Made by a program: the position numbers and the translations under genes. Under the pieces are notes generated by a model. It ran no database searches. It saw only the letters and a program-made list of their open reading frames with translations, and was not told the DNA's origin. Shown here one piece after another: positions 3,935 through 59,283 of a DNA stretch of 64,000 bases. Position 1 is the first letter of the stretch. Each line of letters opens with the position of its first letter. The DNA is from Nonomuraea muscovyensis. Lineage in GTDB: Bacteria > Actinomycetota > Actinomycetes > Streptosporangiales > Streptosporangiaceae. The DNA lies in NCBI RefSeq assembly GCF_014207745.1, contig NZ_JACHJB010000003.1:1240001-1304000 (forward strand). Reading direction: 5' to 3'.

Positions 3935-4016
3935 CCTGCCCAACCCTTGGTCGCCTTGAAGCCCACAACCGGCCAAAACCCCCCATCGCCGGTACGGCAG
4001 GCGATCCCGCTGCGAA

Positions 4017-4439: not shown

Positions 4440-4624
4440 GAGTCGTCAAGTGACCGGGACCGGAAGGGTCAAACGCGGACGGACGGCGTCGAACGCGCCG
4501 GACTCGATCCCGTCGGAGGCGGCTCGGCTACGCCCAGGTGACCGGGCTAACCCGCCGACTTCGGGGAAGAACCTGTTCGGCCCACGGAGCGGCGGGCTTG
4601 TCGGGCAGATCAGGGGAACGCACC

Positions 4625-39205: not shown

Positions 39206-40756
39206 ATGGATGATCAACGCGAACGTGCCATGGCCGACGTCATACGCGGCATGGCCGCGCAGATCGCGGAAGGCGCTCCCCAGGGCTGGAAGCGGGGATG
39301 GGTGCACGCCTACCGCGGCCCGTCCTCCTCGGGACACCGCGGCGCGGGATACGAGATGTCCGACGGCAGCATGGGCGACCTGCCCGCCGCCCTCGGCGGG
39401 CTGAACAGGCTCTACAAGCTCAGTGGCGCCTCGCCGGCGGATCTGACGGTCGATCTGGCCGTCGACTCCTCGGGCCGGTTCGAGGCGGTGACCAGTCGGG
39501 CGATCACCCGGGACCATTCGGGTCTGTTCCTGTACGTCCTGCGCCCGGACGTGCTGCCCCGCGAGCCCGGCGCCGACCAGGACCCACCGTCGAACCCGGC
39601 GCCGGCGGGCGACCCGGATGAGGCCGTGCGGCTGTTCCGGGAGTACGTGAGACGGCGTGCCGAGATCATCGGGGAGGAGTTCCTGCCCGAGCCGCTGGAC
39701 CCGGCCGAGCGGGCCGCGCTGCTGGACGCCTTCCCCGGCGACCTGCCCCCCGACCTGGTGGCCCTGTACGGCGAGGCCGACGGCGACGACGAGACCGGGC
39801 TCTTCCACAACCACCTGTGGTTCCCCCTGGAGTCCACGACGACCTACGTCCACCACCGGCCCGAACGGAGATGGACCGGCGACCCGCTCTGGTCGATGAC
39901 CGGCGACGCGGAGCCGTTCGGCACCATCCGGCGACAGCTCAGCAGCCCGCGCTGGATCCCGTTCGCGACCAGCACCGGCGGCGACTACCTGGCGGTCGAC
40001 ATGGACCCGGGACCCGCGGGCCGCCCGGGCCAGGTCATCCGCGTCGGGATCCACTACGACGGCGAGCCCGTCTATGTCGCCGACTCCGTCACGACCATGC
40101 TGCGCCGGCTCGTGGAGGCACTCGACCGGGGCGACTACGAAGACCGCGAGGGCTACCTCGATGTGTACGCCAGGCTCCCGAGCTACCTGGACGACGACCG
40201 CACCTACTGGCGCGGCGCGCCCCCGATCCCGAAGAAGACGCGCAGGATCCAGTCCCTCGTCGTCGACAAGGTCAGGGACCTCGATCTGGAGTCGGTCCGC
40301 GGCGCGCCGCACCTGCGCATGGTGGCGTTGTTCGGCGAGGGGCCCGTCGATCTGGAGCCCCTGCGCGACGTCCCGCTCGAGGCGTTGCGGCTGGAGCTGG
40401 ACGCGGCCGATCTGAGCCCGCTGGCCGGACACCCGACCTTGCGCGCGGTGACCCTCGGCACGCGGGACCCCGTCGATCTCGGCGTGCTGCGGACGTTCCC
40501 GCGTCTGGAAGGACTCGAACTGGCGGAGGGCGCCGCCCGGGACCTCGCCGTGATCGGCGAGCTGGACGGGCTGCTCTCACTCACGCTCTCGCCCGAGCAG
40601 TGGCGGCGGCTCGGCGAGCCGCCGCCACTGGCCGCGGCCGGGCTGAACGGCGACCCCACGCCGGGTCAGGTGAGCGAGTGGGCCGCACTGTTCGAAGCCG
40701 GCGAGGAGCTCGGGGGTTGCGCGTACTTCACGGGGCTGCTCGACGGCTCTGCCTGA
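39206..40756 (+). CDS. SMI1/KNR4 (SUKH) domain protein with leucine-rich C-terminus
   Basis: 516 residues. Residues about 150-300 match the SUKH fold (LPPDLVALYGEADGDDETGL, WIPFATSTGGDYLAVD, GQVIRVGIHYDGEPVYVAD), common in toxin-immunity proteins and scaffold proteins. The C-terminal 180 residues have irregular leucine-rich repeats (LRDVPLEALRLELDAADLSP; LRTFPRLEGLELAEGA). The N-terminal 130 residues are unassigned. No toxin gene is next to it, so an immunity role is unproven. The start is ATG 39206; ATG 39230 is possible. Confidence 0.7.
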   Translation: MDDQRERAMADVIRGMAAQIAEGAPQGWKRGWVHAYRGPSSSGHRGAGYEMSDGSMGDLPAALGGLNRLYKLSGASPADLTVDLAVDSSGRFEAVTSRAITRDHSGLFLYVLRPDVLPREPGADQDPPSNPAPAGDPDEAVRLFREYVRRRAEIIGEEFLPEPLDPAERAALLDAFPGDLPPDLVALYGEADGDDETGLFHNHLWFPLESTTTYVHHRPERRWTGDPLWSMTGDAEPFGTIRRQLSSPRWIPFATSTGGDYLAVDMDPGPAGRPGQVIRVGIHYDGEPVYVADSVTTMLRRLVEALDRGDYEDREGYLDVYARLPSYLDDDRTYWRGAPPIPKKTRRIQSLVVDKVRDLDLESVRGAPHLRMVALFGEGPVDLEPLRDVPLEALRLELDAADLSPLAGHPTLRAVTLGTRDPVDLGVLRTFPRLEGLELAEGAARDLAVIGELDGLLSLTLSPEQWRRLGEPPPLAAAGLNGDPTPGQVSEWAALFEAGEELGGCAYFTGLLDGSA

Positions 40757-41566: not shown

Positions 41567-42598
41567 ATGATCTCGCTGGCTATGTCACCCTCTGCAGCGC
41601 CGGGAGCACTCTTGTTCAAGCGTCGTGGTTTGATCCTGTCCGCAGCCCTCACCATGCTGTTGGTGTGCGTCGCCGTTCCCGGTGCGGCGGCAGGCGATGA
41701 GTTGGATGATCCGACAAATCCGGGTCCGGTTTACAAGACGGTGACGGACAAGAGCGCGCTGCTGTCCTTGCAGACCAACGGGCGCCCGGACGGGCGGGAC
41801 ATGGTCTTCCGGATCTCGGGCTCCGTCTACGCCAACATCGAGGGCAACGCCCACGACCCGGCGCTGCGCCACGGCCAGAAACTGTTCAACATCGAGGGTT
41901 ACAACATCCGGCGGCTGTACCGGGTGCCCGGCACCACGCAGCTCTACCAGCTCTCCCGTGAGATCGTCTTCTACACCGACCCCGCCGATCCGACGAAGGT
42001 CCTGCGGGAGTGGAAGAACCCGATCGACCTCAAGACCTACCCCGTCGTCCCCATCAACAACGACGCGGTGAACTTCGGCCCGTTCAACGTCACCTCCTCC
42101 TACGTCGGCCCGCCCCTGCGGCAGATGCACGACGAGACCGAGTGGACCAGCGACATCCCGGTGCGCGCGGACCTCAAGACCGCGCTGGGCGAGTCGTTCG
42201 GCCTGGTGAACGGGGTCTACGCGGCCCAGGAGATGTTCGACTTCTACGTCGACGACCGGGAGGTCGCCACCCGCACGGTCGCGGGCACCGTGCCCAAGGG
42301 GGCGATGAACACCAAGATCAGCTGGGCCAGGACGAGCCCATGGGCGCCGTTCCTGTGCCTGCCGGAGACCGATGTCCGCGGCCAGCTCACCTACCACGCC
42401 CGCAGTTGGTCGCTGCAGTCCTACGACGACATCGAGCCGTGGCTGCGCGCCGAGGTCGAGGCCGCCTACCCGCTCTTCAGGGCCGCCCCCACCGCGCCCG
42501 GCCCGAGCGAGAACTCCTGGACGTCCTTCTACAACAAGCAACTGGGCAAGGGAGCCACCACCTGGGCCGGCTGGTGCGCCGCCAACGGAAAGGGCTGA
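41567..42598 (+). CDS. Secreted DUF1838-family protein
   Basis: 343 residues. The N-terminus has KRR followed by a hydrophobic core (LILSAALTMLLVCVAV) and AAAG, a Sec signal with probable cleavage near residue 42. The mature part matches DUF1838: FNIEGYNIRRLYRVPGTTQL, SREIVFYTDPADPTKVLREW and KTYPVVPINNDAVNF. No biochemical function is known for the family. A bidirectional terminator follows 18 bases after the stop. Start ATG 41567, or ATG 41582. Confidence 0.72.
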   Translation: MISLAMSPSAAPGALLFKRRGLILSAALTMLLVCVAVPGAAAGDELDDPTNPGPVYKTVTDKSALLSLQTNGRPDGRDMVFRISGSVYANIEGNAHDPALRHGQKLFNIEGYNIRRLYRVPGTTQLYQLSREIVFYTDPADPTKVLREWKNPIDLKTYPVVPINNDAVNFGPFNVTSSYVGPPLRQMHDETEWTSDIPVRADLKTALGESFGLVNGVYAAQEMFDFYVDDREVATRTVAGTVPKGAMNTKISWARTSPWAPFLCLPETDVRGQLTYHARSWSLQSYDDIEPWLRAEVEAAYPLFRAAPTAPGPSENSWTSFYNKQLGKGATTWAGWCAANGKG

Positions 42599-46277: not shown

Positions 46278-46306
46278 TTCATCACTCACCCACGGTGAGC
46301 TATAGT
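46278..46306 (+). promoter_or_regulatory. Promoter of the prenyltransferase-oxygenase pair with operator in the spacer
   Basis: TTCATC (46278-46283) and TATAGT (46301-46306) are separated by 17 bases. The spacer is almost filled by the perfect palindrome CTCACC-CAC-GGTGAG (46285-46299). A protein on this dyad would block polymerase. The GTG start lies 33 bases after the -10 box. Confidence 0.6.
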
Positions 46307-46338
46307 CGCTCCGGAGGCGGGGGAGCGGAGGCCATGCG

Positions 46339-47061
46339 GTGGTGTCGGGTCTGCCAGGCCACGTGGCGTGCGTCATGGACGGCAACGGGCGGTGGGCCGA
46401 GCGGCGCTCACTGCCCCGGACGGCCGGGCACCGGGCCGCCGAGGCCGCGGTGATCGACGTGATCGAGACGGCCTACGCGGCCGGCATCCCGTGGCTGAGC
46501 CTGTTCGCCTTCTCCACCGAAAACTGGCGGCGGCCCGGCGGCGAGGTCGGCTTCCTGATGCGGCTGGTGCAGCGGGCCGTCCGCAAGCACGCCATGACGC
46601 TGCACGCGCGCGGCATCCGGTGCCGCTTCCTCGGCGACTCCGACGCCAGGATCCCCGCGTCCCTGGCCGGCGACATCACCGACCTCATGACGCTGACCCG
46701 CGCCAACACGCGGATGACGCTGACCGTGGCGTTCGACCACGGCGGGCGCCGCGACATCGTGAGCGCCGCCCGGTCCCTCATCCGCGACCGGGTGCCGGCC
46801 GAGCAGGTCACCGAGGAGAGCTTCGCCCGCCACCTGCCCCACCCCGACACCCCCGACGTGGACCTGGTCATCCGCACCTCCGGGGAGCAGCGCATCTCCA
46901 ACTTCATGCTGTGGCAGGTGGCCTACGCCGAGTGGATGTTCCCCCGGGTGCTGTGGCCGGACTTCCGCGCGGCGCACCTGTGGGAATGCCTGGACGCCTA
47001 CCGGCGGCGCGAGCGCCGGTTCGGCGACGTCCAGGTGCCGACCATGACGCGAGAGGGCTGA
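46339..47061 (+). CDS. cis-Prenyltransferase (polyprenyl diphosphate synthase, UppS superfamily)
   Basis: 240-residue cis-prenyltransferase that adds isopentenyl units in Z configuration to an allylic diphosphate. It has the catalytic Asp in VMDGNGRWA (D14), FAFSTENWRRP, and the C-terminal IRTSGEQRISNFMLWQ-AYAEW motif that binds isopentenyl diphosphate. The length fits the family, but product chain length cannot be read safely. GTG 46339 has GGAGG seven bases upstream. It is one base apart from an EF-hand oxygenase-like gene and has its own promoter, so it is probably a second, specialised enzyme beside the housekeeping UppS. Confidence 0.86.
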   Translation: MVSGLPGHVACVMDGNGRWAERRSLPRTAGHRAAEAAVIDVIETAYAAGIPWLSLFAFSTENWRRPGGEVGFLMRLVQRAVRKHAMTLHARGIRCRFLGDSDARIPASLAGDITDLMTLTRANTRMTLTVAFDHGGRRDIVSAARSLIRDRVPAEQVTEESFARHLPHPDTPDVDLVIRTSGEQRISNFMLWQVAYAEWMFPRVLWPDFRAAHLWECLDAYRRRERRFGDVQVPTMTREG

Positions 47062-47062
47062 G

Positions 47063-48541
47063 ATGGCCGAGACGACGAACGCTCCGACCGACCCCGTGAC
47101 CGACCCGATGGCCGACACCGGGGCCGATCCGGCGACCGGCTCCGCGCCCACGCCGGGGCCCGGCCCGTTGCTGCGGCACTACGCGAACCAGGCGCGGTGG
47201 GGGCTGGCGGCGACCCGGGCCAGCGTCCTGGAGGCCGCCCACCCGCAGATCGGCGCGGCCCTCGCCGCCAACTCGACGTTCGTCGCCCGCCCCTGGCGGC
47301 GGCTGCGCAACACCCTGGTCAGCATGCGCCGGCTGGTCGACGACGACGACCAGGTGCGCCTGCGCGAGGCGGCCCGGCTCAACAGGCTGCACGGGCGCAT
47401 CGCCGGTACCGACGCCCAGGGCCGGCCCTACGACGCGATGGACCCCGAGGCCCGCGCCTGGGTGATGGCGACCCTGTTCGAGTCGACGGTCACGATGTGC
47501 CGGCTCGGTGGCAGGCCCCTCGACAAGCCCACGCAGGAGCGCCTGTACGAGGAGTTCCGGGAGATGCTCGTCCTCATGGGCGACGACGGCGCCGCCCTGC
47601 CCGCGACGCTCCACGAGTTCTGGCCCTACTACGACGAGACGGTCAGCCTTCGCCTGGAGCTCAACGAGGCGGTCCACGCCGTCCTCTACCGGGTGTTCGC
47701 GGAGGTGCCCCCGCCGCCCCTCCTGCGCGACCACCCGGCGGCGTGGGCCGCGATCCGGGCCCTGGCCGGGCCGCTGGCCGGCGCGATCACCGTGGCGTCG
47801 CTGCCCGACGGCTTCCGCCGGCAGGCCCACCTCGCCACGCCGCCGGGCGCGCAGGCGCTGATGCACGGCGTCTACCTGACGGCCGGGCTGGCGACCCGCT
47901 GGCTGCCGGCGGCCTGGACGCGGGTCTCCACGTTCATGGACGTCCTGGACCTCGACGACGAGCCCGGCTCGCGGCTGCTGGGGGCGCTGCTGCACCAGGC
48001 GAGCCGGGTCAGCACCCTGCTGCAGCACGTCCACGCCGAGCCCGAGCAGCCCGTCGCCCCCGCCCGCAGATCCGCCGAGCGGTTCTTCACCGAGGTCCTC
48101 GACCAGACCGGCAACGGCCATCTCGAATGGCCCGACCTGGCGGCCATGGCCCGGGAGATCGCGACCCGGCTCGACATGGACGCCCAGGCCGAGGCCCGGC
48201 TCTTCACCGCGTACGCCGACTGGTGGCGCGAGCTCCAGACCAGCCTGGACACCGACGGCGACGGGCGGATCACCCGGCACGAGTACGCGACGGCGGCCAC
48301 CACGCCTGCCGGGCCCGCCCTGATCAAGGTGGCCGACGCGCTGTTCGACGCCACCGACGCCGACGGCGACCAGACGATCAGCACGCCCGAGTACCAAGCG
48401 CTGTTCCGGTCCGCGTTCGACCGCGAACTGACCGGCGGCGCCGACCGGCTCTCCCGGGCGGCGTTCGTCAGGGAGTTCCTGACGTTCATGGCGGGCCGCC
48501 ACCACTCAGGCGCCTACGACAGCCTCCTCACCGAAGGCTGA
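47063..48541 (+). CDS. DUF2236/MpaB-type oxygenase fused to C-terminal EF-hands
   Basis: 492 residues. After a Thr/Pro/Asp-rich tail (1-33), residues about 35-290 match DUF2236 (HPQIGAALAANS, RLHGRIAG with H110, YDAMDPEARAWVMATLFES, EFWPYYDE), the heme-protein family that includes latex-clearing rubber oxygenase Lcp and MpaB, which cleave polyisoprenoid double bonds. The C-terminal third has calcium-binding EF-hand loops at 347-358 (DQTGNGHLEWPD), 396-407 (DTDGDGRITRHE) and 432-443 (DADGDQTISTPE). It is co-transcribed with a cis-prenyltransferase. Calcium-controlled oxidation of a Z-polyprenyl product is the natural inference. Confidence 0.75.
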   Translation: MAETTNAPTDPVTDPMADTGADPATGSAPTPGPGPLLRHYANQARWGLAATRASVLEAAHPQIGAALAANSTFVARPWRRLRNTLVSMRRLVDDDDQVRLREAARLNRLHGRIAGTDAQGRPYDAMDPEARAWVMATLFESTVTMCRLGGRPLDKPTQERLYEEFREMLVLMGDDGAALPATLHEFWPYYDETVSLRLELNEAVHAVLYRVFAEVPPPPLLRDHPAAWAAIRALAGPLAGAITVASLPDGFRRQAHLATPPGAQALMHGVYLTAGLATRWLPAAWTRVSTFMDVLDLDDEPGSRLLGALLHQASRVSTLLQHVHAEPEQPVAPARRSAERFFTEVLDQTGNGHLEWPDLAAMAREIATRLDMDAQAEARLFTAYADWWRELQTSLDTDGDGRITRHEYATAATTPAGPALIKVADALFDATDADGDQTISTPEYQALFRSAFDRELTGGADRLSRAAFVREFLTFMAGRHHSGAYDSLLTEG

Positions 48542-48556
48542 CGACCGAGGGGCGGC

Positions 48557-50320
48557 TCAGGATGTGCCCGGGCCGTCCTCCTGCCGCCGCCCCGGGCGGG
48601 AGGCGCCACGGGGAGCGGGGGGAGAGGCGGTGCGGGAGGCGAGGTCGCGCATGCGGCGGACGGCGCGCGTGATGACCGTGCGGTTCTGGGTACGGGCGAG
48701 CCGGACCGCCTCCCGCCGCCACGCCTCGGCCTTCTCCCGCCATCGGGCCGCGTCCCGTTCGCTCTTGCCCGCCTGCCTGCGCACCTCGGCCAGTTCGGCG
48801 CGCAGCGCGGCGGCCCGCTCCCGGAGCCGGGCGATCTCCTTCTCACGCTGCGCGGCCAGCCGCTCGGCCTCCGGCACCGGGCGCCTGCGCGGGGGGTAGC
48901 CGGCGGGCCTGCGGGTGAAGCCCCACTCGGCGCCGTCCAGCCACTCGACGCCGAACAGCTCGTCCACGACGTCGTCCAGCGGCTCGCCCGGCTCGGCCAC
49001 CAGGGCGGCACGCGACAGGGCGGAGGCGCGCTCCAGGCGGGCCACGAGCACGCCCCCCTCCGTCTCGTCCAGCGCCAGGCACAGCACCCCGCCGTCGTCC
49101 TCCTCCAGGCGCCCGACCAGGCGCTCGACGGTGTCGGCGCGCGGCATCCAGCCGGGCGGCACCGTCAGCCGGAACGGCGCCACGACGCGCTCGGGGCCGG
49201 CCGGGGGCGGCGCCGCGGGGTCGGCCAGCCGCACCCGGGCGTCGTGCTCGAACGTGGCGTGCACGAGGCGCAGGTCCAGGTCCGGGTCGCGCAGCGGGGA
49301 GCGGCGGCCGGCGCCGAGCGACGCCCACGGGCCCTCGACGGTGACCCGGACGTCCGGGAGGCTCCCGGCCAGCAGACCGTCCACCGTGGCACGGACGTCC
49401 TCGTACGCCCCGGCCGGCACCACGGCGTCCACGTACGGCACCAGCCACTGCCGCCCGGCGTCCGTGCGCAGGTAGCGCCGGTACGGCACGCGGTCGGCGA
49501 CGTACGGGTCGTTGTACCTCTTCAGGGCGGCCATGTCGCGCATCGCCGTGGGCAGGCCGAGATGCCAGGCCCGCGCCTGCGGGTCCGGCACGAACACCAC
49601 GCCCGCCTGGGTGAGCCGGTAGCCGAGTTCGGTGTCCTCGGCCAGCACCAGCGAGGTGTCCAGCCCGCCGATGGAGCGCAGCAGCGCCGCGGGGTAGGCG
49701 GCCGTCGCCCCCACGTGGATCCTGGTGGCCAGCGAGCTCGGCGCGGTGCGCAGCCCGTCGTGGTCCTGGATGATCTTCTCGGCCCAGTCGTGGCGGTGCG
49801 GGGAGAGCGGGAAGAGGCCGTCCTCCTCGCCGTCCCGCACGGCCGCGCGCACCCGTTCCGGTGACGGCAGCCGGTCGGCGACGGTGAAGTCGATCCAGCC
49901 GAGCGTCACCACGTACGGGGCGAGATGGTGCCAGCGCAACTGCGCCTCGACGTGCCGGCGGTGCGGCACCATGTCGGCGTCCAGCACGAGGACGACCTCA
50001 CCGGTGGCCGCCTCCAGGCCCGCCTGGAGAGCCCAGGCCCGCCCCCAGCCGCCGGGCGGGCTGGAGATCAGCTTGGTCCCGTCGGGGACGAGCTCCGGCA
50101 GCCGCAGCGGGACCGCGCTGCCGTCGTCCACGACGACCACGTCCATCAGCTCGGCCGGGTAGCTCTGGGCCGACAGCGCCGCGAGGGTGAGGTCGAGGGT
50201 CTGCTGGCGGTCGTGCGCGGGGATGACGACCGTCACGGTCAGCGTAGGGCTCCAGCCGCCGAGCGGCGGCGGGGTGAGCACGCCGAAGTCCTGCCGCCGG
50301 ATGCGCGGGATGCGGGTCAC
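48557..50320 (-). CDS. GT2 glycosyltransferase, A-type (third gene of leftward operon)
   Basis: 587 residues. The N-terminal GT-A domain has TVTVVIPAHDRQQTL, VVVDDGS and DADM (114-117) followed by the RWHH motif, then AEDTELGYRLTQAGVVFVPD as the acceptor/base region. A middle domain (about 300-450) is shared with the other A-type proteins, and the C-terminal 130 residues form an Arg/Glu coiled coil and basic tail. GTG 50320 overlaps the preceding glycosyltransferase stop (GTGA). The operon order is 53834 to 48557. Sugar and acceptor unknown. Its end faces the EF-hand oxygenase gene 15 bases away. Confidence 0.78.
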   Translation of the reverse strand: MTRIPRIRRQDFGVLTPPPLGGWSPTLTVTVVIPAHDRQQTLDLTLAALSAQSYPAELMDVVVVDDGSAVPLRLPELVPDGTKLISSPPGGWGRAWALQAGLEAATGEVVLVLDADMVPHRRHVEAQLRWHHLAPYVVTLGWIDFTVADRLPSPERVRAAVRDGEEDGLFPLSPHRHDWAEKIIQDHDGLRTAPSSLATRIHVGATAAYPAALLRSIGGLDTSLVLAEDTELGYRLTQAGVVFVPDPQARAWHLGLPTAMRDMAALKRYNDPYVADRVPYRRYLRTDAGRQWLVPYVDAVVPAGAYEDVRATVDGLLAGSLPDVRVTVEGPWASLGAGRRSPLRDPDLDLRLVHATFEHDARVRLADPAAPPPAGPERVVAPFRLTVPPGWMPRADTVERLVGRLEEDDGGVLCLALDETEGGVLVARLERASALSRAALVAEPGEPLDDVVDELFGVEWLDGAEWGFTRRPAGYPPRRRPVPEAERLAAQREKEIARLRERAAALRAELAEVRRQAGKSERDAARWREKAEAWRREAVRLARTQNRTVITRAVRRMRDLASRTASPPAPRGASRPGRRQEDGPGTS

Positions 50321-52320
50321 GATGTGCTGCTCCGGTCGAGCTCCATCAGGGCGCTGGGCCGGAAGCCGCGCCACTGCTGCCTGTTGCGCTGCAGGAACGT
50401 GCCGATCGGCTCCTGCCAGGTGTGATCGGCCGCGGGGCCCCGGCGCAGGATGTAGCCGAGACCGTGGGTGCGGTAGATCTGGCCGCCCGCCGCCTGCAGC
50501 GCCTCCTGGAACTGCGTGTCGACCGAGCGGCGCAGCGGCCGGAAGCCGCCCACGGCCTGGAACGCCGAGCGTTCGACGAGGATCGTGCCGCCCGCGACGA
50601 AGCTGGTGATCTGCTCGGTGACCTGCCTGCGGTGCACGGTGACGTCGATCGAGGCCAGGTAGACGAACTCCGGCACCGTCCCCACCACCTGCGCCCCCGA
50701 GTAGGAGTGGGCCAGCAGCAGGTCCGACAGGAAGTCGGGGCCGTACCAGTCGTCGTCGTCCATCTTCAGCAGGAACGATCCCGACGCCCGGGCGGCGGCG
50801 TGGTTCAGCACCGCGCCGAAGATCTCCTCCCGGCCGGCCTCGTACACCGTCAGCGGGCGGTCGAACGCGGCGATCGCCGCCGCCACCTCGGGGTGGTCGC
50901 GGGGTACGTCGTGCAGGGCGAGCACCACCTCGAGCCGCGCGTCGCGCTGCCGGGCCACCTGGTCGAGCGCGAACCGCACCATGGCGGGCCGGCGGGTGGC
51001 GAGGAGCACGGACGTGAGCGGCGCGGCGGGGGCGGGCGCGCCGAGCTGCTCCCAGCGCGCGGCCACCCCGTGCGTGCGCAGCGCCTCGCGGCGCAGCCGG
51101 ATGCTGTGCTCCTCTCGCCGCAGGTCGTCGGTGAGGCCGGGACGGCTCGTCAGCAGCGCGATCAGCTCCTCGCCGAGGCCGTGCGCCCAACGGGGCACCG
51201 ACTCCGCGACGAGCGGCACTCCGGCCGCCGCGAGTCCGGCGAGCACGCGGACGGCGGCGAGCGGCCCGCTGTGCGCGTGCCGCCAGTCCACCTCCACCCC
51301 GCGGACCTGCCTGAGCCGCGCCACGTCGGCGTCCGTCACGCCGCCCGACTCGGCGAACGTCGTCACCGGCTTCCCGTCGAGCAGCACCGCCCAGCGTCCG
51401 TCGCGCTCCTCCAGGGAGGCCAGGCCGCGCGACGGCGTGGTGACGAAGCCCTGCGGGTTGACCAGCCGCTCGTCCACCGGCGGAATCATCGACGGCTCGC
51501 CGAGCACGTCGGGGTCGGCCAGCGGCAGGCCGGCGCCGCCGGGCCGGCCCAGCAGCTCCCAGGTGGCGGCCCGGTGGGCCGGCCGCTCGACGGGCGTCTC
51601 GTCGCCCTCCCAGCCCTCCGTGGTCACGAGGGCCTGCGGGTCGCCGGGCGCGTCACCGGCTGCGGGGCCGGGCGCGGGGCCGAGCACGGCCGGGTCGGGG
51701 AACGTCCGCAGCACCACGTCACCGCCCGGCGCGCCGACCCGCTCGGGGACCGGGCCCGACACCTCGGCGGGCGTGGCGTTGGGGTCGCCGGGCCGCCAGT
51801 CGGCGGCGCCGACGCCGGCGATCGCGGCGGCGGGCGCGGCGATCACGTCGAGCCGGTGGCCGGCGAAGGCGCGGGCGGTCGCGGTCACGGTACGGCCGGC
51901 GGGCACCGGCGCCGAGAACGTGGCGTCCACCACCCACACCCGGTCCTTGGGCCGGTGCACCCGCAGGTCCGCCAGCGCCCGCCACCGGTGCGCGGGAGTG
52001 GGCGTGGGCACCGGCGCCGGGTGCGCCGCGGGAGTGTCGAGCACGGCCACCACCACGCGCGCCGCATCGGGCAGCAGCTTGTGCAGGGTGGCGGCCCGCC
52101 TCAGATCGGCCGGGGTGCGGGCGAGCACCAGCACCTCCCGCACCTGTTCCGTGGCGGGCGGCGGCTCCAGGAGGTCCCGGTCCAGGTCCACCGGCGGGGG
52201 CACGGCGGCGCGGTCCGTACGGTCCGGCGCGTCGCGGTCGGGGGCAGGGACGGCGTCGGGGTCGATTCCGGCGAGGTAGACGCGCGCCCGCGGCAGCTCC
52301 GCCAGCAGTTCACGGATCAA
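50317..52320 (-). CDS. GT2 glycosyltransferase, B-type with long N-terminal extension
   Basis: 667 residues from TTG 52320, whose TTGA overlaps the upstream gene's stop. The first 290 residues are an extra, Pro/Ala-rich region with no recognised domain. About 290-420 is a domain shared with the B-type gene at 54.6 kb (ending LRREEHSIRLRREAL). Then follows a GT2 domain with LLATRRPAMVRFALDQVARQ, the acidic motif MDDDDWYG (520-527), AGGTILVERSAFQAVGGF and IYRTHGLGYILRR. Coupled on both sides to A-type genes, so A and B proteins probably work in the same pathway. Confidence 0.75.
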   Translation of the reverse strand: MIRELLAELPRARVYLAGIDPDAVPAPDRDAPDRTDRAAVPPPVDLDRDLLEPPPATEQVREVLVLARTPADLRRAATLHKLLPDAARVVVAVLDTPAAHPAPVPTPTPAHRWRALADLRVHRPKDRVWVVDATFSAPVPAGRTVTATARAFAGHRLDVIAAPAAAIAGVGAADWRPGDPNATPAEVSGPVPERVGAPGGDVVLRTFPDPAVLGPAPGPAAGDAPGDPQALVTTEGWEGDETPVERPAHRAATWELLGRPGGAGLPLADPDVLGEPSMIPPVDERLVNPQGFVTTPSRGLASLEERDGRWAVLLDGKPVTTFAESGGVTDADVARLRQVRGVEVDWRHAHSGPLAAVRVLAGLAAAGVPLVAESVPRWAHGLGEELIALLTSRPGLTDDLRREEHSIRLRREALRTHGVAARWEQLGAPAPAAPLTSVLLATRRPAMVRFALDQVARQRDARLEVVLALHDVPRDHPEVAAAIAAFDRPLTVYEAGREEIFGAVLNHAAARASGSFLLKMDDDDWYGPDFLSDLLLAHSYSGAQVVGTVPEFVYLASIDVTVHRRQVTEQITSFVAGGTILVERSAFQAVGGFRPLRRSVDTQFQEALQAAGGQIYRTHGLGYILRRGPAADHTWQEPIGTFLQRNRQQWRGFRPSALMELDRSSTS

Positions 52321-53834
52321 CCCGCACTCCGCAGGTGCCTGATGAGCGAGCTGAACCGGCCGGTCCCGGCGTCGTCCGGTGCCTCGGCCGACAGCCGCGC
52401 CACCTCCGCCGAGAGCCGCTCGACCTCGCCGCGCAGTTCCTTGACCTCCGCCAGCCGCTGGGCGGCCAGCGCCCGCCACTTGGCCGCGTCGCCGGCCGGT
52501 GACTCCGCCTCGGTAACGGGGACGATCCCGAACTCGGCCCCGCTGACCCACAGCGAGCCGAACATCTCGTCGACCAGGTCGTCGGGGTCGCCGTGGAAGA
52601 ACGCGGCGCGGGCGAACGCCGCCGTCCGCTCGAACCGGGCCGCCACCACCCCGTCGGGGGTCTCGGCCAGGACGGCGCAGACGAGGCCCAGCCCGTCGGC
52701 GTCTGCCAGCCGTACCAGCCGGGACACCGTGTCGGGGCCCGGCGCCCACCCGGCCGGCAGCGTCAGCAGGAACGGCGCCGGGGCGGCCGACAGCGGCTCG
52801 GCCGCGGCGAACGCGACGCGCGGCTCGTACCGGTAGAGGTTGCTGAGCAGGCGCAGGTCCAGCAGCGGCTCGTCGAGGCTGGCACGGCGCCCGTCCGTGA
52901 GCCGGTCCCAGGGCCCGGCGACGGTGACGGCCGTGTCGGTCACGGTGCCCGCCAGGGCCGCGTCTACGGCGGTGCGCGTCTCCTCGTAGGTGGTGGCCGG
53001 CACGACGACCCGCACGTACGGCACCCGCCAGTGGCGGCGCGGGTGGGCGCGCAGCCAGCGCAGATCGGGGATGAGGTCGCCGAGGTAGGACCAGTTGTGC
53101 CGGTGGACGTCCTTCTCCCGCCGCATGACCGTGGACGGGCCGACGTGCCAGCCGCGCGCCAGCGGGTCCGGCACGAACACCGCGCCCGCCTGGGCCAGGC
53201 GGTAGCCCAGCTCGGTGTCCTCGGCCATGTTCAGGCCCGGGTCCACGCCGCCCGCGGCGGCCAGCAGGTCGGCCCGGACGGAGGAGGAGGCGCCGGTGTG
53301 CAACAGGTACGCGTTCGCACCGGCGTCCTTCAGCATGCGGGTGGACTCCAGCGTCCGGTTCGTGTACGCGGACCGGACGCCCTCCTCGCCCGGCGCGTCG
53401 ACGAACCGGGTGTCGCCGATGACGACGGCGTGGTCGATGAGGTGGTGCCAGCGCATGTGCGCCTCGACGTGGTCCTCGGCGAGGATCATGTCGGCGTCGA
53501 GCCAGTGGATCACGTCGCCGGTCGCGGCGAGCCGGCCGGTCTCCCGGGCCGCGCCCCGCCCCCAGCCGTCGCGGACCCGCACGACCCGCGCCCGGAGCGG
53601 CCCGGTGCGCAGGTCGGCGGGCAGCTCGATGGGCGGGTCGCTGCCGTCGTCGGCGACGACCACCTCGGTCAGCTCCGCGGGGTAGGTCTGCCGGCCGAGG
53701 GCGGTGACCGTCCGCTCCAGCTCGTCACCGCAGCCGCGGGCGGGGATGACGATCGAGACGGTCAGCGCGGGCCGCCACGTCCCGATGGCCGGGGGGTCGA
53801 GGACGCCGTAGTCGTTGTGCCTGACCCGTGTCAT
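52317..53834 (-). CDS. GT2 glycosyltransferase, A-type (first gene of leftward operon)
   Basis: 505 residues: GT-A domain with SIVIPARGCGDELE, DADM (113-116), MRWHH, and MAEDTELGYRLAQAGAVFVPD, then the A-type middle domain and a short C-terminal coiled coil. It opens with NDYGVLDPPAIGTW; similar openings (DFGVL-PP, DYRVL-PP, DFSPL-PP) mark all four A-type proteins in the window. ATG 53834. Its promoter is probably in the 75 bases before a small coiled-coil membrane protein gene. Confidence 0.78.
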   Translation of the reverse strand: MTRVRHNDYGVLDPPAIGTWRPALTVSIVIPARGCGDELERTVTALGRQTYPAELTEVVVADDGSDPPIELPADLRTGPLRARVVRVRDGWGRGAARETGRLAATGDVIHWLDADMILAEDHVEAHMRWHHLIDHAVVIGDTRFVDAPGEEGVRSAYTNRTLESTRMLKDAGANAYLLHTGASSSVRADLLAAAGGVDPGLNMAEDTELGYRLAQAGAVFVPDPLARGWHVGPSTVMRREKDVHRHNWSYLGDLIPDLRWLRAHPRRHWRVPYVRVVVPATTYEETRTAVDAALAGTVTDTAVTVAGPWDRLTDGRRASLDEPLLDLRLLSNLYRYEPRVAFAAAEPLSAAPAPFLLTLPAGWAPGPDTVSRLVRLADADGLGLVCAVLAETPDGVVAARFERTAAFARAAFFHGDPDDLVDEMFGSLWVSGAEFGIVPVTEAESPAGDAAKWRALAAQRLAEVKELRGEVERLSAEVARLSAEAPDDAGTGRFSSLIRHLRSAG

Positions 53835-53909
53835 GCGCCGCCCTCGACGCGTACCCGTTCCCGGCGCGGCCGGTTCGCCGCCAGGTCCCCGCTGCGTACC
53901 CGCGCCACG

Positions 53910-54347
53910 TCAGACCCGGCCCTGGGCCAGCGCGCGGACCTCCGCGCGCAGCTCGTCCAGCTCGTGGGCGCGGGCCATGGCGTTGACCCGGTCCTCGCCC
54001 AGGGAGGCGAGGATCGCGGTGAGGTCCTCGTCGCGGCGCGCACCCGACGCCTCGACCGCCGCCGCCACGCGGTCCAGTTTCGCGTCGATGCGCTTGAGCG
54101 CCGTCGCGGTCCTGGCCAGCTCGTTCTCGTGCTTCTTGACCCGCTGGTCGATGCGCTGGGCCTTGCCGTCCAGCCGGCGCACGCTCATCAGCAGGACGGC
54201 GAGGACGGCCAGGGCGATCAGGAACGCTCCCGTGGCTGCCGCCGCGCCCAGCGCCATCAGGCCGCCGAGCACGAGCGCCGTGAGCACGACGACGACCAGG
54301 ACTCCGAGGATTGCGGCGATCATCGCCAGCCTGCGAGGCGAGAGCAT
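53910..54347 (-). CDS. Small membrane-anchored coiled-coil protein
   Basis: 145 residues with two hydrophobic helices (about 8-30 and 35-54) followed by a cytoplasmic helical, coiled-coil tail (KRIDAKLDRVAAAVEASGARR, LDELRAEVRALA). ATG 54347 has GAAAGG upstream. It sits in the centre of the glycosyltransferase array, at the head of the leftward operon, and could be a scaffold for the glycosyltransferases at the membrane. No named family recognised. Confidence 0.6.
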   Translation of the reverse strand: MLSPRRLAMIAAILGVLVVVVLTALVLGGLMALGAAAATGAFLIALAVLAVLLMSVRRLDGKAQRIDQRVKKHENELARTATALKRIDAKLDRVAAAVEASGARRDEDLTAILASLGEDRVNAMARAHELDELRAEVRALAQGRV

Positions 54348-54591
54348 CCGCGCTTACCTTTCGTCGAGATCATTAATCGGTCATCGGGGATTTATTTACA
54401 GCTTAATCAACTTAAACCACTACAGTGCCATAACATCCTTAGCGGTCACTGGGAACGACCGCAGCTTTACCTGCGAGGCTTTCCGCCGTGGCGGGCGCTC
54501 CCCGCCTACGCCTCAATCGGACAGGCGTGCCGGACGGGCGTAAGGTAGGCGCCGACTGAGTCGCCGAGCCCGGTCGAGGAGCACTCCACGC
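54348..54591. promoter_or_regulatory. AT-rich divergent promoter region in the glycosyltransferase array
   Basis: The first 100 bases (about 54360-54450) are far richer in A and T than anything else in the window, with runs such as TTTATTTACAGCTTAATCAA. The leftward operon starts on one side and the rightward pair on the other, so both promoters are expected here. Exact -35/-10 boxes could not be chosen with confidence. A GC-rich stretch with a CGGGCGCTCCCCG dyad follows nearer to the rightward gene. Confidence 0.5.
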
Positions 54592-55683
54592 ATGACCGTC
54601 ACCCCCTGCGGTTTCACGCGCACGCCCGAGAAGGGGCTCGCCCGTCTCCACTGGAGCGAGGCCGGGTGGGCGGTCGACGGTCACGTGCCCGACGTGGCCG
54701 AGCTGCGCCCGTTGCGCGGCCTGGAGATCGAGTGGCCGACCGAGCCGGTGCCGCTCGACGGCCTGCTGGCGCTCGCGGCGGCCGGCGTGCCGCTGGCCGG
54801 CCCCGAAGCGGCCGGCACCCTGCCCCCCGGCTGGGTGCCGGAGAGCCTGGCGCGGCTGCTCGCCGACCGCGCCTGGTTACGCCACGTCCCCGACGGCACC
54901 GCGCGCTGCCTGGCCGACCTGCGGCGCGAGGAGCACAGCGTACGGCTGCGCCGCCTGGCCCACCGCCTCCCGGGCACACCCGCGATCAGCGTCGTCATGG
55001 CCACCATGCGCCCGGCCCTCGTCGCCGGCGCGCTCGCCCAGATGGCCCGCCAGCGCGGCGTCCAGGTGGAGGTGCTCCTGGGCCTGCACGGGGTGCCGTT
55101 CGAGCGGGTGCGCCACGCGGTCGAGGGCGCCGGGCTGCCGGTGGCCTGGGTGGAGGCGGACGCCGACGTGCCGTTCGGACAGGTGCTCAACGACGCCGCG
55201 GCGCTCGCCGGCGGCGACTACGTGGCCAAGTGGGACGACGACGACTGGTACGGCCCCGACCACCTCGCCGACCTCGTGATGGCCACCGCCTACTCCGGGG
55301 CCGACGTGGTCGGCACGGCGGGGGAGTTCCTCTACCTGGAGCCGCTGCACACCACGATCCGGCGCACCACGTTCGCCAGCGGCGCCGCGTACAAGAGCGA
55401 GGTGTGGTCCGACCACGTGGCGGGCGGCACGATCCTCACCTCCCGGGCGAAGTTTCATGACATCGGGGGCTTTCCTGCCCAGCCCCGGGCGGTGGACCGC
55501 GACTTCCTCAAGGCCGCCACCGAGGCGGGCGCGCGCGTCTACCGCACCCACGGCCTCGGCTACGTGCTGCGGCGCACGCTCAGCGGCGGGCACACCTGGC
55601 AGCTCCCGCTCGCCCACTTCCTGAAGGTCGCCTCCAGCCAGTGGCGGGGGTTCCGCCCGAGCCTGCTGATGGAGGCCGCGTGA
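54592..55683 (+). CDS. GT2 glycosyltransferase, B-type
   Basis: 363 residues. Residues 1-125 are the B-type N-terminal domain (FTRTPEKGLARL, ending LRREEHSVRLRR). Residues 130-363 are the GT2 domain with VVMATMRPALVAGALAQMAR, the acidic motif WDDDDWYG (214-221), AGGTILTSRAKFHDIGGF and YRTHGLGYVLRR. It lacks the 290-residue extension of its paralog at 50.3-52.3 kb. ATG 54592. The stop overlaps the A-type gene that follows (GTGA). Confidence 0.76.
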   Translation: MTVTPCGFTRTPEKGLARLHWSEAGWAVDGHVPDVAELRPLRGLEIEWPTEPVPLDGLLALAAAGVPLAGPEAAGTLPPGWVPESLARLLADRAWLRHVPDGTARCLADLRREEHSVRLRRLAHRLPGTPAISVVMATMRPALVAGALAQMARQRGVQVEVLLGLHGVPFERVRHAVEGAGLPVAWVEADADVPFGQVLNDAAALAGGDYVAKWDDDDWYGPDHLADLVMATAYSGADVVGTAGEFLYLEPLHTTIRRTTFASGAAYKSEVWSDHVAGGTILTSRAKFHDIGGFPAQPRAVDRDFLKAATEAGARVYRTHGLGYVLRRTLSGGHTWQLPLAHFLKVASSQWRGFRPSLLMEAA

Positions 55684-57341
55684 CCGCCTTCCCCTATCCC
55701 GTACGGCCGGCGGGCGACCGGGAGCGGGTGCGCGGCAACGACTACCGCGTGCTGCGGCCCCCGGCCGGCTTCGAGCCCACGCTGCGGGTCAGCGTGGTCG
55801 TCCCCGCCTACGGCGGTCAGGACAAGCTCGACCTCGTGCTGGCCGCGCTGGCCAGGCAGAGCTATCCGGCCGAGCTGATCGAGGTCCTCGTCGTCGACAA
55901 CGGCAGCTCGCCGCCGCTGCGCCTGCCGGAGGAACGCCCGCGCGACACCCGGCTGATCGTCTGCGGGACACCCGGCCGGGCCAGCGCGCGCAACGCCGGC
56001 CTGGCCGAGGCGAGCGGCGACGTCGTCCACTGGCTCGACTCCGACGTTCTCCTCACGCCCGGCGCGATCGAGGCGCACATGCGCTGGCACCACGCCGCGC
56101 CCTACCTCGTCGTCACCGGCTACATCCGCTTCACCGACGCCCCCGTACCCGCCGAACTGCCCGACGACCTGGAGCAGGCGTTCGAGCCCGCCGAGCCGCA
56201 CGGCTGGATCGTCGAGCTGGTCGAACGCACCGGCGGCCTCACCGACAACCCGCAGCGCCCGTTCAGCCTGCACGTGGGCGGCGCCACCTCGGTCGGGGCC
56301 CGGCTCGTCGAGGCGGCCGGGCCGATGGACGAGGACCTGATCCTCGGCCAGGACACCGAGCTGGGCTACCGCCTCGCGCAGGCGGGCGCCGTGTTCGTCC
56401 CCGAGCCGGCCGCCCGCGCCTACCACCTCGGGCCCACCATGCGGATGCGTGACAAGGAGCCCATCGACCGGGTGAGCCACGCGTTCGTGGCCGATCGCAT
56501 CCCCGCCTACCGGTGGCTGCGCTCGCATCCGGGCCGCCAGTGGAAGGTGCCGTACGTGGCGGCCGTCGTGGACGGCACGGCCGGGTACGAGAGCGTGCGG
56601 TCCACCGTGGACGCGCTGCTCGCCGGGACCGTGCCGGACGTCGAGGTCGTGGTCGTCGGCCCGTGGGACACGCTGGACCGCGACCGCCGCGCCCCCCTCC
56701 GCGATCCCGCCCTGGACCTGGTGCTCGTCCACGGCCACTACCTGCACGACGGCCGGGTCCGGCTGGCGACCGCCGCCGACGTCGATCCCGCCGTGCCGTA
56801 CGTGCTGCGCCTGCCGCCCGGCTGGGTGCCCGGCGAGGACAGCCTCGCCCGGCTCCTCGACCTGTGCCGCGACGAGGGGTACGGCCTGGTGAACGTGCTG
56901 CTGCACGAGTCGCCGGACGGCGTGGTGGCCGCCCGCCTCGAACGCGTCGCCGCCTTCGCCCGCGCCTGCGTCGTGCTGGAGCCCGGCGAGGACCTGGACG
57001 ACGCGGTGGACGACGTGTCCGGCGTGACCTGGGTGGAGGGGGAGACCTACGGGTTCGGCGCCGAGCCCGCCGAGATCCCCGGCCGCCGCAGCGCCCACCG
57101 CGCCAGGACGGAGGCCCGCGCCGAGGCGGAACGCCTGGCCAAGGAGGCCGAACGACTGCGTGCCCAGGTGACCAAGTGGCGCGACGAGGCGGCGCGGTGG
57201 CGCAAGAGCGCCGTCGAACTGCGGCGCGAGGTCGGCACCCTCCGCCGCCAGCTCGCCGCCGCCAACCGGGCCCAGCAGGGCCTGCGCGTCCTCGTGGCCA
57301 CCACCGTCCGCCGCGCCCTGAGCCGCAAGAACCGCACCTGA
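55680..57341 (+). CDS. GT2 glycosyltransferase, A-type
   Basis: 553 residues from GTG 55680, coupled to the B-type gene upstream. GT-A domain with VSVVVPAYGGQDKLD, DSD (120-122), MRWHH and LGQDTELGYRLAQAGAVFVPE (here GQDTE replaces the EDTE of its paralogs), A-type middle domain, and a C-terminal coiled coil (about 475-550). The same A-B coupling exists in the leftward operon, which argues that this pair arose by duplication of a two-gene unit. Confidence 0.78.
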   Translation: MTAFPYPVRPAGDRERVRGNDYRVLRPPAGFEPTLRVSVVVPAYGGQDKLDLVLAALARQSYPAELIEVLVVDNGSSPPLRLPEERPRDTRLIVCGTPGRASARNAGLAEASGDVVHWLDSDVLLTPGAIEAHMRWHHAAPYLVVTGYIRFTDAPVPAELPDDLEQAFEPAEPHGWIVELVERTGGLTDNPQRPFSLHVGGATSVGARLVEAAGPMDEDLILGQDTELGYRLAQAGAVFVPEPAARAYHLGPTMRMRDKEPIDRVSHAFVADRIPAYRWLRSHPGRQWKVPYVAAVVDGTAGYESVRSTVDALLAGTVPDVEVVVVGPWDTLDRDRRAPLRDPALDLVLVHGHYLHDGRVRLATAADVDPAVPYVLRLPPGWVPGEDSLARLLDLCRDEGYGLVNVLLHESPDGVVAARLERVAAFARACVVLEPGEDLDDAVDDVSGVTWVEGETYGFGAEPAEIPGRRSAHRARTEARAEAERLAKEAERLRAQVTKWRDEAARWRKSAVELRREVGTLRRQLAAANRAQQGLRVLVATTVRRALSRKNRT

Positions 57342-57412
57342 CCGACCTCGCCGCGCACCAGGGGAGACGCCCTCACCTCCGCAACGCACGGGGTCACGCT
57401 GCTCGGGGGGCC

Positions 57413-57478
57413 GCCCCTCTCGGGAGGGGCGCGCACCTCGGAATGGCCACCCCCTCCTGAGGAAGGAGTTCCCCTTCC
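57413..57478. terminator. Hairpins between convergent A-type glycosyltransferase genes
   Basis: GCCCCTC-TCGG-GAGGGGC (57413-57430) is a perfect stem with a four-base loop. A second smaller hairpin has GGAAGG (57461-57466) and CCTTCC (57473-57478). They lie between the stops at 57341 and 57561 and probably end transcription from both sides. Confidence 0.65.
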
Positions 57479-57560
57479 GGAGCGGCGCGCTCGCTCCTGG
57501 AGGGCCGTCACGACGGAGCGTCCAGGTGGCGGCGCGGATGGCGAGGCCGGGGCGGGCGGG

Positions 57561-59138
57561 TCAGTCGGGGCGCAGGGCCGACTTCAGGCGGCCCAGCAGC
57601 GTGCGTTCCGCGGGAGTCCGTGAGGCGGGCACCACCGCGCCCACCGGCTGGGCGGGCTGCTTCACGGCGGGCTCGCCCGGTTCGGCCGCGCCACCCCCGC
57701 TGCCGCCACCCGCGCCAGGGCGGGCCGATGCCGGCGCGGCCGGGGCCGGCGCGGCCGGGGCCGGCTTGGCCGGAGGCGCGGGCCAGTAGCGGTCCGGCGG
57801 CACGTGCCGTACTCCGTGGGTGACCGCGATGACGTCGTCCAGGTCGTCGCCCGGCGCGGCGAGCAGCAGCGCCCGCCCCAGGGCGGAGGTGCGCTCCAGC
57901 CTGGCCGTGCGCCCGTCGGGCAGGTCCACCACCAGCACGCCCGTCAGGTCCTTCTGCACCGTCTCCACCATCCGCTCCAGCGTCGAGCGGTGCAGCGGCA
58001 CGTCCACCGGCCCGCGGTAGCGGAACGGCGCGGGCGCGGGCGTCGGCGCCGCCTCGTCGATGAGCCGGATCCGCTCGTCGTGCGCGAACAGGTCACGCAT
58101 CAGCCGCAGCTCGAAGCGCGGGTCGGACAGCACCGAGCGCCGCCCGTCGTGCAGCCGCGCCCACGGTCCCACCAGCGTCACCACCACGTCCTGCAGCGCA
58201 CCGTCCAGCGCCGCCGCCACCGCCCGCCGTACGACGGTCTCGGAGGTGTCGCCCACGTCCAGCACGATCTCGACGTACGGCACCAGCCACCGCCGGCCCG
58301 CGTCCTTGCGCAGGTCTCGCCGGAGCGGGATGCGGTGCGCGAGGTACGGCTCGACGGCCCGTACGGCCCGCTCGCGGTCGCGGTGCTGCGCCGGCAGCCC
58401 CAGATGCACCGCCTGGGCCTCCAGGTCGGGGATGAACACGACTCCGTGCATGGCCAGCCGGTACGCGAACTCGGTGTCCTCGCCCCGCACGACGGTCGGA
58501 TCGAGACCGCCCACCGCGTGGAAGACGTCCCTGGGCAGGGCGAAGGTCGGCCCCGTGCACACGTGGTAGGGATTGCGGCTCCTGCGCAGCCCGTCGGTCT
58601 TGGCGATCGTCGCCTCGGTCGAGCTGGCCACCGCCTTGTCCAGCGCGAACACCTCACCGAGGTCCCGGGCCCGGTACACCTCGGCGGCGGTCAGCGGCGG
58701 CACCTCGACGAACTTCTTCATGCCGATCGTGACCAGGTAGTCGGTCAGGTGATGCCAGCGGGCCAGCGCCTCGATGTGTTCGCGGCAGGCGACCATGTCG
58801 GAGTCGAGCCGCTGGATGATCTCGCCGTCGGCGGCCCGGGCGCCGGTGTTGACGGCGTTGGAGATGCCCCAGCCCGTCTCGACCCTGACCAGGCGGGTGT
58901 TGACCGGCCGGATCTCCGGCAGCCGGATCGGCGGCTCGCTGCCGTCGTCCACGACCAGGACCTCCATGAGGTGGTCCGGGTACGTCTGCGCCGCGAGTGC
59001 GGCCAGCGTCAGCTCCAGGTGCGGCCCGCCGTGCGCGGGCACCACCACGCTCACGGACAGGGCGGGCGACCAGGTGCCGAGTTCCGGCGGCTGAAGCGGA
59101 GAAAAGTCGTTCTGCGTCATGGCAGGACGCGCGTTCAT
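57561..59138 (-). CDS. GT2 glycosyltransferase, A-type, with Ala/Pro-rich tail
   Basis: 525 residues: GT-A domain with VSVVVPAHGGPHLEL, VVDDGS, DSDM (112-115), RWHH and RGEDTEFAYRLAMHGVVFIPD, then the A-type middle domain. In place of the coiled coil of its paralogs it ends with an Ala/Pro/Gly linker (about 455-495) and a short basic end. ATG 59138 is preceded by GGGGGT; ATG 59120 is an alternative. It is a single gene, divergent from thrC by 145 bases, and marks the right edge of the accessory block. Confidence 0.77.
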   Translation of the reverse strand: MNARPAMTQNDFSPLQPPELGTWSPALSVSVVVPAHGGPHLELTLAALAAQTYPDHLMEVLVVDDGSEPPIRLPEIRPVNTRLVRVETGWGISNAVNTGARAADGEIIQRLDSDMVACREHIEALARWHHLTDYLVTIGMKKFVEVPPLTAAEVYRARDLGEVFALDKAVASSTEATIAKTDGLRRSRNPYHVCTGPTFALPRDVFHAVGGLDPTVVRGEDTEFAYRLAMHGVVFIPDLEAQAVHLGLPAQHRDRERAVRAVEPYLAHRIPLRRDLRKDAGRRWLVPYVEIVLDVGDTSETVVRRAVAAALDGALQDVVVTLVGPWARLHDGRRSVLSDPRFELRLMRDLFAHDERIRLIDEAAPTPAPAPFRYRGPVDVPLHRSTLERMVETVQKDLTGVLVVDLPDGRTARLERTSALGRALLLAAPGDDLDDVIAVTHGVRHVPPDRYWPAPPAKPAPAAPAPAAPASARPGAGGGSGGGAAEPGEPAVKQPAQPVGAVVPASRTPAERTLLGRLKSALRPD

Positions 59139-59283
59139 GTGGTGACCCCCTGGCGGGCACTTTATCGGGAGAACCGGAGAATTTCCGCAAATGCGGGATC
59201 TTGTGGCCGCGGCTGGACTCCGTTCGATGGCGCGTCGCGGCACCCCGTACACTCGGGCCCAACACCGCAGGTAGGGAGTCATC

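Follow-up and report, generated by a model that had tools for sequence, protein, structure and literature searches.

A cis-prenyltransferase gene coupled to an EF-hand DUF2236 gene in Nonomuraea muscovyensis: a candidate accessory unit for making and cleaving Z-polyprenoids

In Lcp of Streptomyces K30, a rubber oxygenase, His198 is the heme ligand; Arg164 and His198 are essential and Thr168 nearly so (PMC6311187, PMC5522427). Arg164 and Thr168 are active-site residues on both of which activity depends (PMC5522427, PMC6311187), and the distal ligand Lys167 is found in 59% of 495 Lcps (PMC5522427). Nro1 of Gordonia, a member of the MpaB family, has absorption bands like those of b-heme, and the proposal is that it cleaves C=C bonds of the main chain; its authors equated the heme-site His with Lcp H198, and MpaB itself cuts a farnesyl chain at a double bond (PMC12724181). 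Here we describe two adjacent genes in a 64,000-nucleotide stretch (the window) of the 9.23 Mb genome of Nonomuraea muscovyensis (contig NZ_JACHJB010000003.1, positions 1,240,001 to 1,304,000, forward strand): gene 1 encodes a cis-prenyltransferase (cPT), and gene 2 encodes an EF-hand DUF2236 protein that matches PF09995, the family named for the fungal MpaB of mycophenolic acid. MpaB is bound to the endoplasmic reticulum and acts on a meroterpenoid, and we know of no cPT partner or EF hands for it.

The gene pair differs from each of its relatives. Nro1 lacks both the EF-hand fusion and the cPT coupling, and these two features likewise separate the gene 2 protein from trans-anethole oxygenase (8s1j), with which it shares a DUF2236-type fold. 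Lcp (5o1l, 5o1m) has the fold and the R/T/H active-site residues in common with the gene 2 protein, which in contrast has an Asn for Lys167, no visible twin-arginine translocation signal, an EF-hand domain and a cPT partner. CabC (3akb) and calerythrin share the fold of its C-terminal domain, but in our protein that domain is fused to an oxygenase and its fourth EF site is degenerate. Among titles and opening lines of abstracts in the open-access literature we found no description of a unit that joins a cPT to an EF-hand DUF2236 protein, in agreement with the statement in the initial annotation that no pathway of such shape was known.

The initial annotation had proposed that the two genes belong together, and their occurrence across genomes bore this out. 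A full-length orthologue of gene 2 was present in 19 of 150 genomes of the order (the window's own included; 51-100% identical), with a broken copy in one more (G070), and the same 19 genomes carried an orthologue of gene 1 (69-100% identity; the next best among the rows listed was 52%). Neither gene occurred intact without the other in the 150 genomes, and the two were always adjacent (Fisher p = 1.8e-24, relatedness ignored). In G070 (loci L025 and L132) both genes had decayed together, their matches being in pieces with missing stretches. The closest named relative of gene 2 was from Nonomuraea indica (82% over the best segment, in a search that may omit the window's own record). We added 25 further loci from records named Streptomyces, Actinacidiphila, Microtetraspora, Actinomadura, Actinocorallia and Nonomuraea, and every one of the 45 loci had the cPT upstream, on the strand of gene 2 (20 from the order draw and these 25; L036 and L037 repeat L007 and L008, and broken L025 has its cPT in pieces).

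Broader draws gave the same picture. Among 295 genomes of the genus Streptomyces (the genus of G153), the close clade of gene 2 occurred in 59 genomes at 61 places (59 newly fetched, 2 already in the set as L039 and L056), and a divergent clade occurred in 12. The cPT was upstream at 58 of the 61 close-clade places; the exceptions (L128, L130, L131) were fragments or contained a stop. Of 396 genomes drawn from the whole phylum, four (our own among them) gave a match, and these belonged to 2 of the 237 genera; one match was of the divergent kind, and a cPT was present beside both close-clade copies other than our own. The pair is rare in the phylum and, in the sampled genomes, is confined to two orders, Streptomycetales and Streptosporangiales. 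As controls, none of the 29 other DUF2236 loci had a cPT within 1.5 kb (among 34 wider-family loci only the five orthologues have one), and none of 13 other cPT loci had a gene-2-like sequence within 1.5 kb. The pairwise distances of the two proteins were correlated (rho = 0.907, 94 pairs, permutation maximum 0.272; rho = 0.739 within 72 Streptomycetales-like rows; not corrected for species phylogeny), in a 94-pair set that leaves out broken copies and includes one duplicate. The correlation shows joint inheritance of the two proteins, not set against the species tree.

The junction between the genes was also consistent with a unit. A start codon giving a 4-base overlap (-4) was available in 27/41 and 43/55 loci and is the usual junction, whereas a one-base gap was found in 6 of 41 loci, the window among them; no start codon lay within -20 to +60 in 14 of 96 loci (these counts leave out L025, L036, L037, L060, L127, L128, L130, L131 and L132). 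The one-base gap had been read correctly in the initial annotation (stop at 47061, start at 47063), and profiles recovered both the DUF2236 and the EF-hand domains of gene 2. Of the span first assigned to the unit, 46278-48541, the end stood, while the start takes in upstream sequence, the cPT gene beginning at 46339. Our data support the conclusion that the two genes form a conserved, translationally coupled unit. We detected no conserved larger cluster: no third gene family occurred in more than 5 of 26 loci (the window and 25 others, using a simple gene caller that misses some genes).

Copies of the close clade were also present on seven Streptomyces plasmid records, with the cPT upstream in all seven; judging from equal lengths (e.g. 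L191 and G177:C2), some of these plasmids were probably already counted as contigs in the 295-genome draw. Four of the plasmids are annotated, and there uppS precedes an 'oxygenase MpaB family protein'; the other three carry no annotation at that place. On 12 of 22 Streptomyces contigs longer than 6.5 Mb the unit lay in the terminal tenths (p = 3.5e-4, assuming whole linear chromosomes and independence). We concluded that the unit is accessory and probably transferable. The patchy distribution, the plasmid copies and the terminal positions might also reflect two genes merely co-inherited as a mobile cassette with no shared pathway. We give that explanation very little credence, because no intact close-clade oxygenase lacked its cPT among the places examined and the pairing holds through two orders in changing surroundings.

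The gene 1 protein matched PF01255 (E = 1.1e-73, 247.8 bits, cut-off 27) and TIGR00055 (uppS; 230.1 bits, cut-off 109.55), confirming its assignment as a cPT with catalytic motifs. Residues D14, H31, N62, R65, R179, R185, S187 and E198 were kept in 94 of 94 pairs and R18 in 93; we take these to include the catalytic Asp of MDGNGRW (D14) and the diphosphate-binding Arg, Ser and Glu. The best solved relatives were 7cpn, 7cpm and decaprenyl diphosphate synthase 2vg2 (223-248 bits). The family and catalytic residues are thus shared with UppS and decaprenyl diphosphate synthase, but the pair cPTs are at least 69% identical within their clade and at most 52% to others among the rows listed, and they have a DHGGR motif and a dedicated oxygenase partner. 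Two further cPTs are encoded elsewhere in the genome, so housekeeping synthesis of the carrier lipid is probably not the task of the window's cPT. In a tree that combined 16 pair cPTs with 13 others and the cPT of locus L114, the pair cPTs fell into a single, modestly supported group (84/62; recovered in 86% of bootstrap trees).

Two sequence marks distinguished the pair cPTs: DHGGR in 44/44, versus NYGGR in 12/12 other cPTs, and Phe at position 132 in 44/44, versus Val in 13/13 others. These marks suggest a product that differs from that of other cPTs. Ala57, which is kept, presumably occupies the place of Ala69 in E. coli UppS, and F132 that of A143 (E. coli numbering). As a rule, Ala at position 69 argues against a C15 enzyme, so a C15 product is disfavored here; the enzyme would make a Z-polyprenyl diphosphate whose chain is probably medium to long. 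These features bear on the idea that the oxygenase trims or destroys the polyprenyl carrier lipid while the cPT refills the pool, as a calcium-responsive remodelling of envelope carriers under stress. The homology to UppS, the uppS annotation on four plasmids, and the accessory, arm-biased location would suit such a role. However, Phe132 and DHGGR suggest a different product and the unit is found in a minority of genomes only, and we consider carrier remodelling quite unlikely.

The gene 2 protein matched PF09995 (MPAB_Lcp_cat) over residues 40-271 (E = 1.3e-44, 153.4 bits, cut-off 23). An AlphaFold model built from 28 orthologues had a mean predicted local distance difference test (pLDDT) score of 78.1, with the DUF2236 helices mostly above 90. 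In structure alignments by VIA, the closest fold was trans-anethole oxygenase 8s1j (Z = 18.4, root mean square deviation (rmsd) 3.5, 253 residues aligned within model residues 26-373, 11% identity), and Lcp followed (5o1l: Z = 14.5, rmsd 3.9, 243 residues, model 33-296; 5o1m: Z = 14.2; 12-14% identity over aligned residues). The heme-binding residues of Lcp, on which the initial annotation had staked its proposal, have counterparts in R80, T84 and H110, which were present in 94/94 intact pairs and in 12/12 divergent EF-hand DUF2236 proteins. When the frameshifted L060 was included in a 44-row alignment, R80 and H110 were kept in 44/44 and T84 in 43/44, and H110 was invariant across 19 DUF2236 rows of a wider-family alignment. 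The register was set by spacing (R-x3-T, then His), the Lcp sequence and hhalign, in which a mixed DUF2236 profile matched three Lcp-like proteins (probability 66, E = 5e-5). In the stretch around the base Glu148 of Lcp the register is uncertain. Against solved structures, the same kind of profile found Lcp with E = 0.03, in a match limited to profile positions 126-190. Other sequence searches of solved structures returned EF-hand proteins only for the full-length protein or family (best 60 of 200 and of 337), three chance-level matches for the DUF2236 part, and no match for one generic DUF2236 protein.

The description 'rubber-oxygenase-like' was right in part: the R/T/H residues and the Lcp fold match stand, but the protein has an Asn for Lys167, its closest fold is trans-anethole oxygenase, and it has no visible secretion signal. 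Its N-terminus, MAETTNAPTDPVTDPMADTG, contains no twin Arg and no hydrophobic stretch (judged by eye), and for this reason we took the protein to be intracellular. On sequence grounds, the gene 2 protein is not an Lcp. Because the MpaB-family protein Nro1 combines b-heme-like bands with a proposed C=C cleavage, heme-dependent C=C cleavage would be the expected activity.

EF-hand models matched the gene 2 protein over about residues 394-449, and the C-terminal part of the model aligned with CabC 3akb (Z = 15.2, rmsd 2.9, 147 residues) and calerythrin 1nya (Z = 13.2). Three EF loops were strongly conserved, two of them canonical: loop 1 reads D-x-T-x-N-G, with Thr at position 3 and Asp at position 12; loops 2 and 3 are canonical; and a fourth site near 455-466 is degenerate. 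In loop 3, residue 434 was Asp in 89 pairs and Asn in 5, and residue 436 was Asp in 50, Asn in 27 and Ser in 17. Because the acids D347, D358, D396, D400, E407, D432 and E443 were kept in 94/94 pairs, the domain likely binds calcium (or magnesium). Such a dedicated calcium-type domain, together with the tight coupling, could also mean that gene 2 encodes a heme/calcium sensor or partner through which the cPT is regulated, instead of an oxygenase acting on the cPT product, and the Lcp fold is globin-like and has been compared with globin-coupled sensors (PMC5522427). We regard a sensor as very unlikely, since the active-site Arg and Thr are invariant, which in Lcp are needed for catalysis while heme is still held without them (PMC5522427), and since the divergent clade keeps both residues without a cPT.

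The 12 divergent EF-hand DUF2236 proteins of the Streptomyces-genus draw (36-42% identity) retained the checked heme-site and EF residues. No family was common to the neighbours of more than two of their loci (by the same simple gene caller). The stand-alone Streptomyces proteins L115-L125, L195 and L196 include two plasmid copies that follow a saccharopine dehydrogenase-like gene. At L114 (genome G377, 3839-7189), a divergent cPT lies 68 bases upstream of the presumed ATG of an EF-hand DUF2236 gene. This cPT is about 50% identical to the pair cPT and groups with housekeeping cPTs (97/89) on a long branch, and a squalene/phytoene-synthase homologue (PF00494, E = 5e-28) adjoins it divergently, head-to-head. 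L114, known from one genome, may be a second, independently assembled pairing, a terpenoid version; no further close copy was found in 392 genomes (one at 43%, in G428, had no cPT). This terpenoid setting, and a nearest solved fold (8s1j) named for a small phenylpropene substrate, would fit a specific terpenoid role for the unit, with a heme oxygenase whose substrate is a small or cyclized product, or which hydroxylates or epoxidizes instead of cleaving a chain. Yet the surroundings of the pair contain no conserved cyclase or other tailoring gene, and we judge such a role unlikely.

We see about an even chance that the two genes are an accessory 'make and cleave' unit for Z-polyprenoids, whose heme oxygenase cuts C=C bonds and responds to calcium. 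The computations give the gene structure, the strict pairing, the co-inheritance, the predicted fold and the conservation of residues at the catalytic, heme and EF sites; to these, this reading adds heme content, cleavage chemistry, a shared substrate and a calcium response, which we infer. The pathway of the initial annotation, with calcium gating and an apocarotenoid-like signal or a trimmed lipid carrier as its product, is a reasonable, partly supported proposal that draws on gene pairing and homology. The two genes would act as one accessory metabolic unit. Its downstream protein would belong to the MpaB/trans-anethole-oxygenase/Lcp superfamily and work inside the cell as an oxygenase with a b-type heme, liganded by H110. 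This oxygenase would cleave a C=C bond of the chain made by the cPT, or of a molecule derived from it, to give aldehyde- or ketone-ended apo-polyprenoids, and calcium bound by the EF-hand domain would tune activity or membrane docking.

Several observations weigh against the make-and-cleave reading. Unrelated helical folds can reach Z = 13-14, so the Z values for Lcp are only moderately above background; the Foldseek list was headed by EF-hand proteins, with 8s1j at rank 41 (E = 0.0095); and hhalign of the pair-clade family alone against Lcp-like proteins was weak and not significant (probability 1). Asn83 occupies the Lcp Lys167 place in 94/94 pairs, and position 135, the His of WVHATL in many DUF2236 proteins, was Val in 87, Ile in 4, Met in 2 and Ala in 1. 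Because of these two replacements, the substrate or mechanism may differ from that of relatives. We rejected the idea that the heme site is destroyed when the His of WVHATL is missing, because the Lcp ligand H198 sits in another motif, RMVH, to which H110 corresponds. In the alignments, Lcp K30 has a His of its own (TWHSL) no more than about one position away from residue 135. Lastly, 11 of the 12 divergent proteins had no cPT in flanks of about 4 kb on each side (for L116, about 1 kb upstream), nor did the two divergent plasmid copies (L195, L196), indicating that this type of EF-hand oxygenase can work without a cPT.

Table 1. Features of the gene pair, in window positions.
Feature	Positions	Strand	Basis
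TATAGT, possible -10 element of the unit's promoter	46301..46306	+	within upstream stretch common to closest relative L007; weak
cis-prenyltransferase (Z-polyprenyl diphosphate synthase; cPT), 240 amino acids, GTG start	46339..47061	+	PF01255, TIGR00055, catalytic residues
EF-hand MpaB/DUF2236 protein, predicted b-type heme C=C-cleaving oxygenase, 492 amino acids, ATG start	47063..48541	+	PF09995, EF-hand models, AlphaFold model, fold matches
DUF2236/MPAB_Lcp_cat domain, residues 40-271	47180..47875	+	PF09995 profile; 8s1j and 5o1l fold matches
R80-x-x-N83-T84, counterpart of Lcp R164-x-x-K167-T168	47300..47314	+	spacing, Lcp sequence, hhalign; 94/94 pairs
H110, predicted proximal heme ligand (Lcp H198)	47390..47392	+	94/94 pairs, 12/12 divergent proteins
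Calerythrin/CabC-like EF-hand domain, residues about 333-490	48059..48532	+	fold matches 3akb, 1nya
EF loop 1 (D347-D358)	48101..48136	+	D347, D358 in 94/94 pairs
EF loop 2 (D396-E407), canonical	48248..48283	+	D396, D400, E407 in 94/94; D398 in 93/94
EF loop 3 (D432-E443), canonical	48356..48391	+	D432, E443 in 94/94 pairs

The positions of these features are given in Table 1. The -10 assignment is weak because GCTATAGT was found in 4 of 22 upstream regions, which does not exceed the shuffle maximum. A shared upstream motif was not accepted in either order: the commonest 8-mers, which were GC-rich, occurred in 5/22 regions in Streptosporangiales (shuffle maximum 4) and in 9/19 in Streptomycetales (shuffle maximum 7). 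Downstream of the pair, a run of family 2 glycosyltransferase-like genes occupies 48557-59414 on both strands, and related genes stand beside the pair in N. indica. Elsewhere in the window we observed a DUF1838 protein (41567-42598, E = 9e-33) and an SMI1/KNR4 (SUKH-1) domain protein (39206-40756; PF09346, E = 9e-11), a family often linked to toxin immunity.

A more far-reaching proposal, possible but doubtful, is a calcium-gated apo-polyprenoid pathway in which a dedicated cPT and an EF-hand heme oxygenase yield a new bacterial apo-polyprenoid signal or metabolite, carried by a mobile two-gene cassette of Streptomycetales and Streptosporangiales. With only two genes, the unit is transferable to a laboratory host, making the proposal directly testable. 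The pair also illustrates that a uppS annotation (on the plasmids, with a peptidoglycan Gene Ontology term) can hide a non-housekeeping enzyme. If the proposal is true, bacteria would have in this unit a counterpart of carotenoid cleavage that starts from Z-polyprenyl chains and is controlled through calcium. It would also assign a physiological substrate to some members of the intracellular DUF2236 family, which is large and poorly understood.

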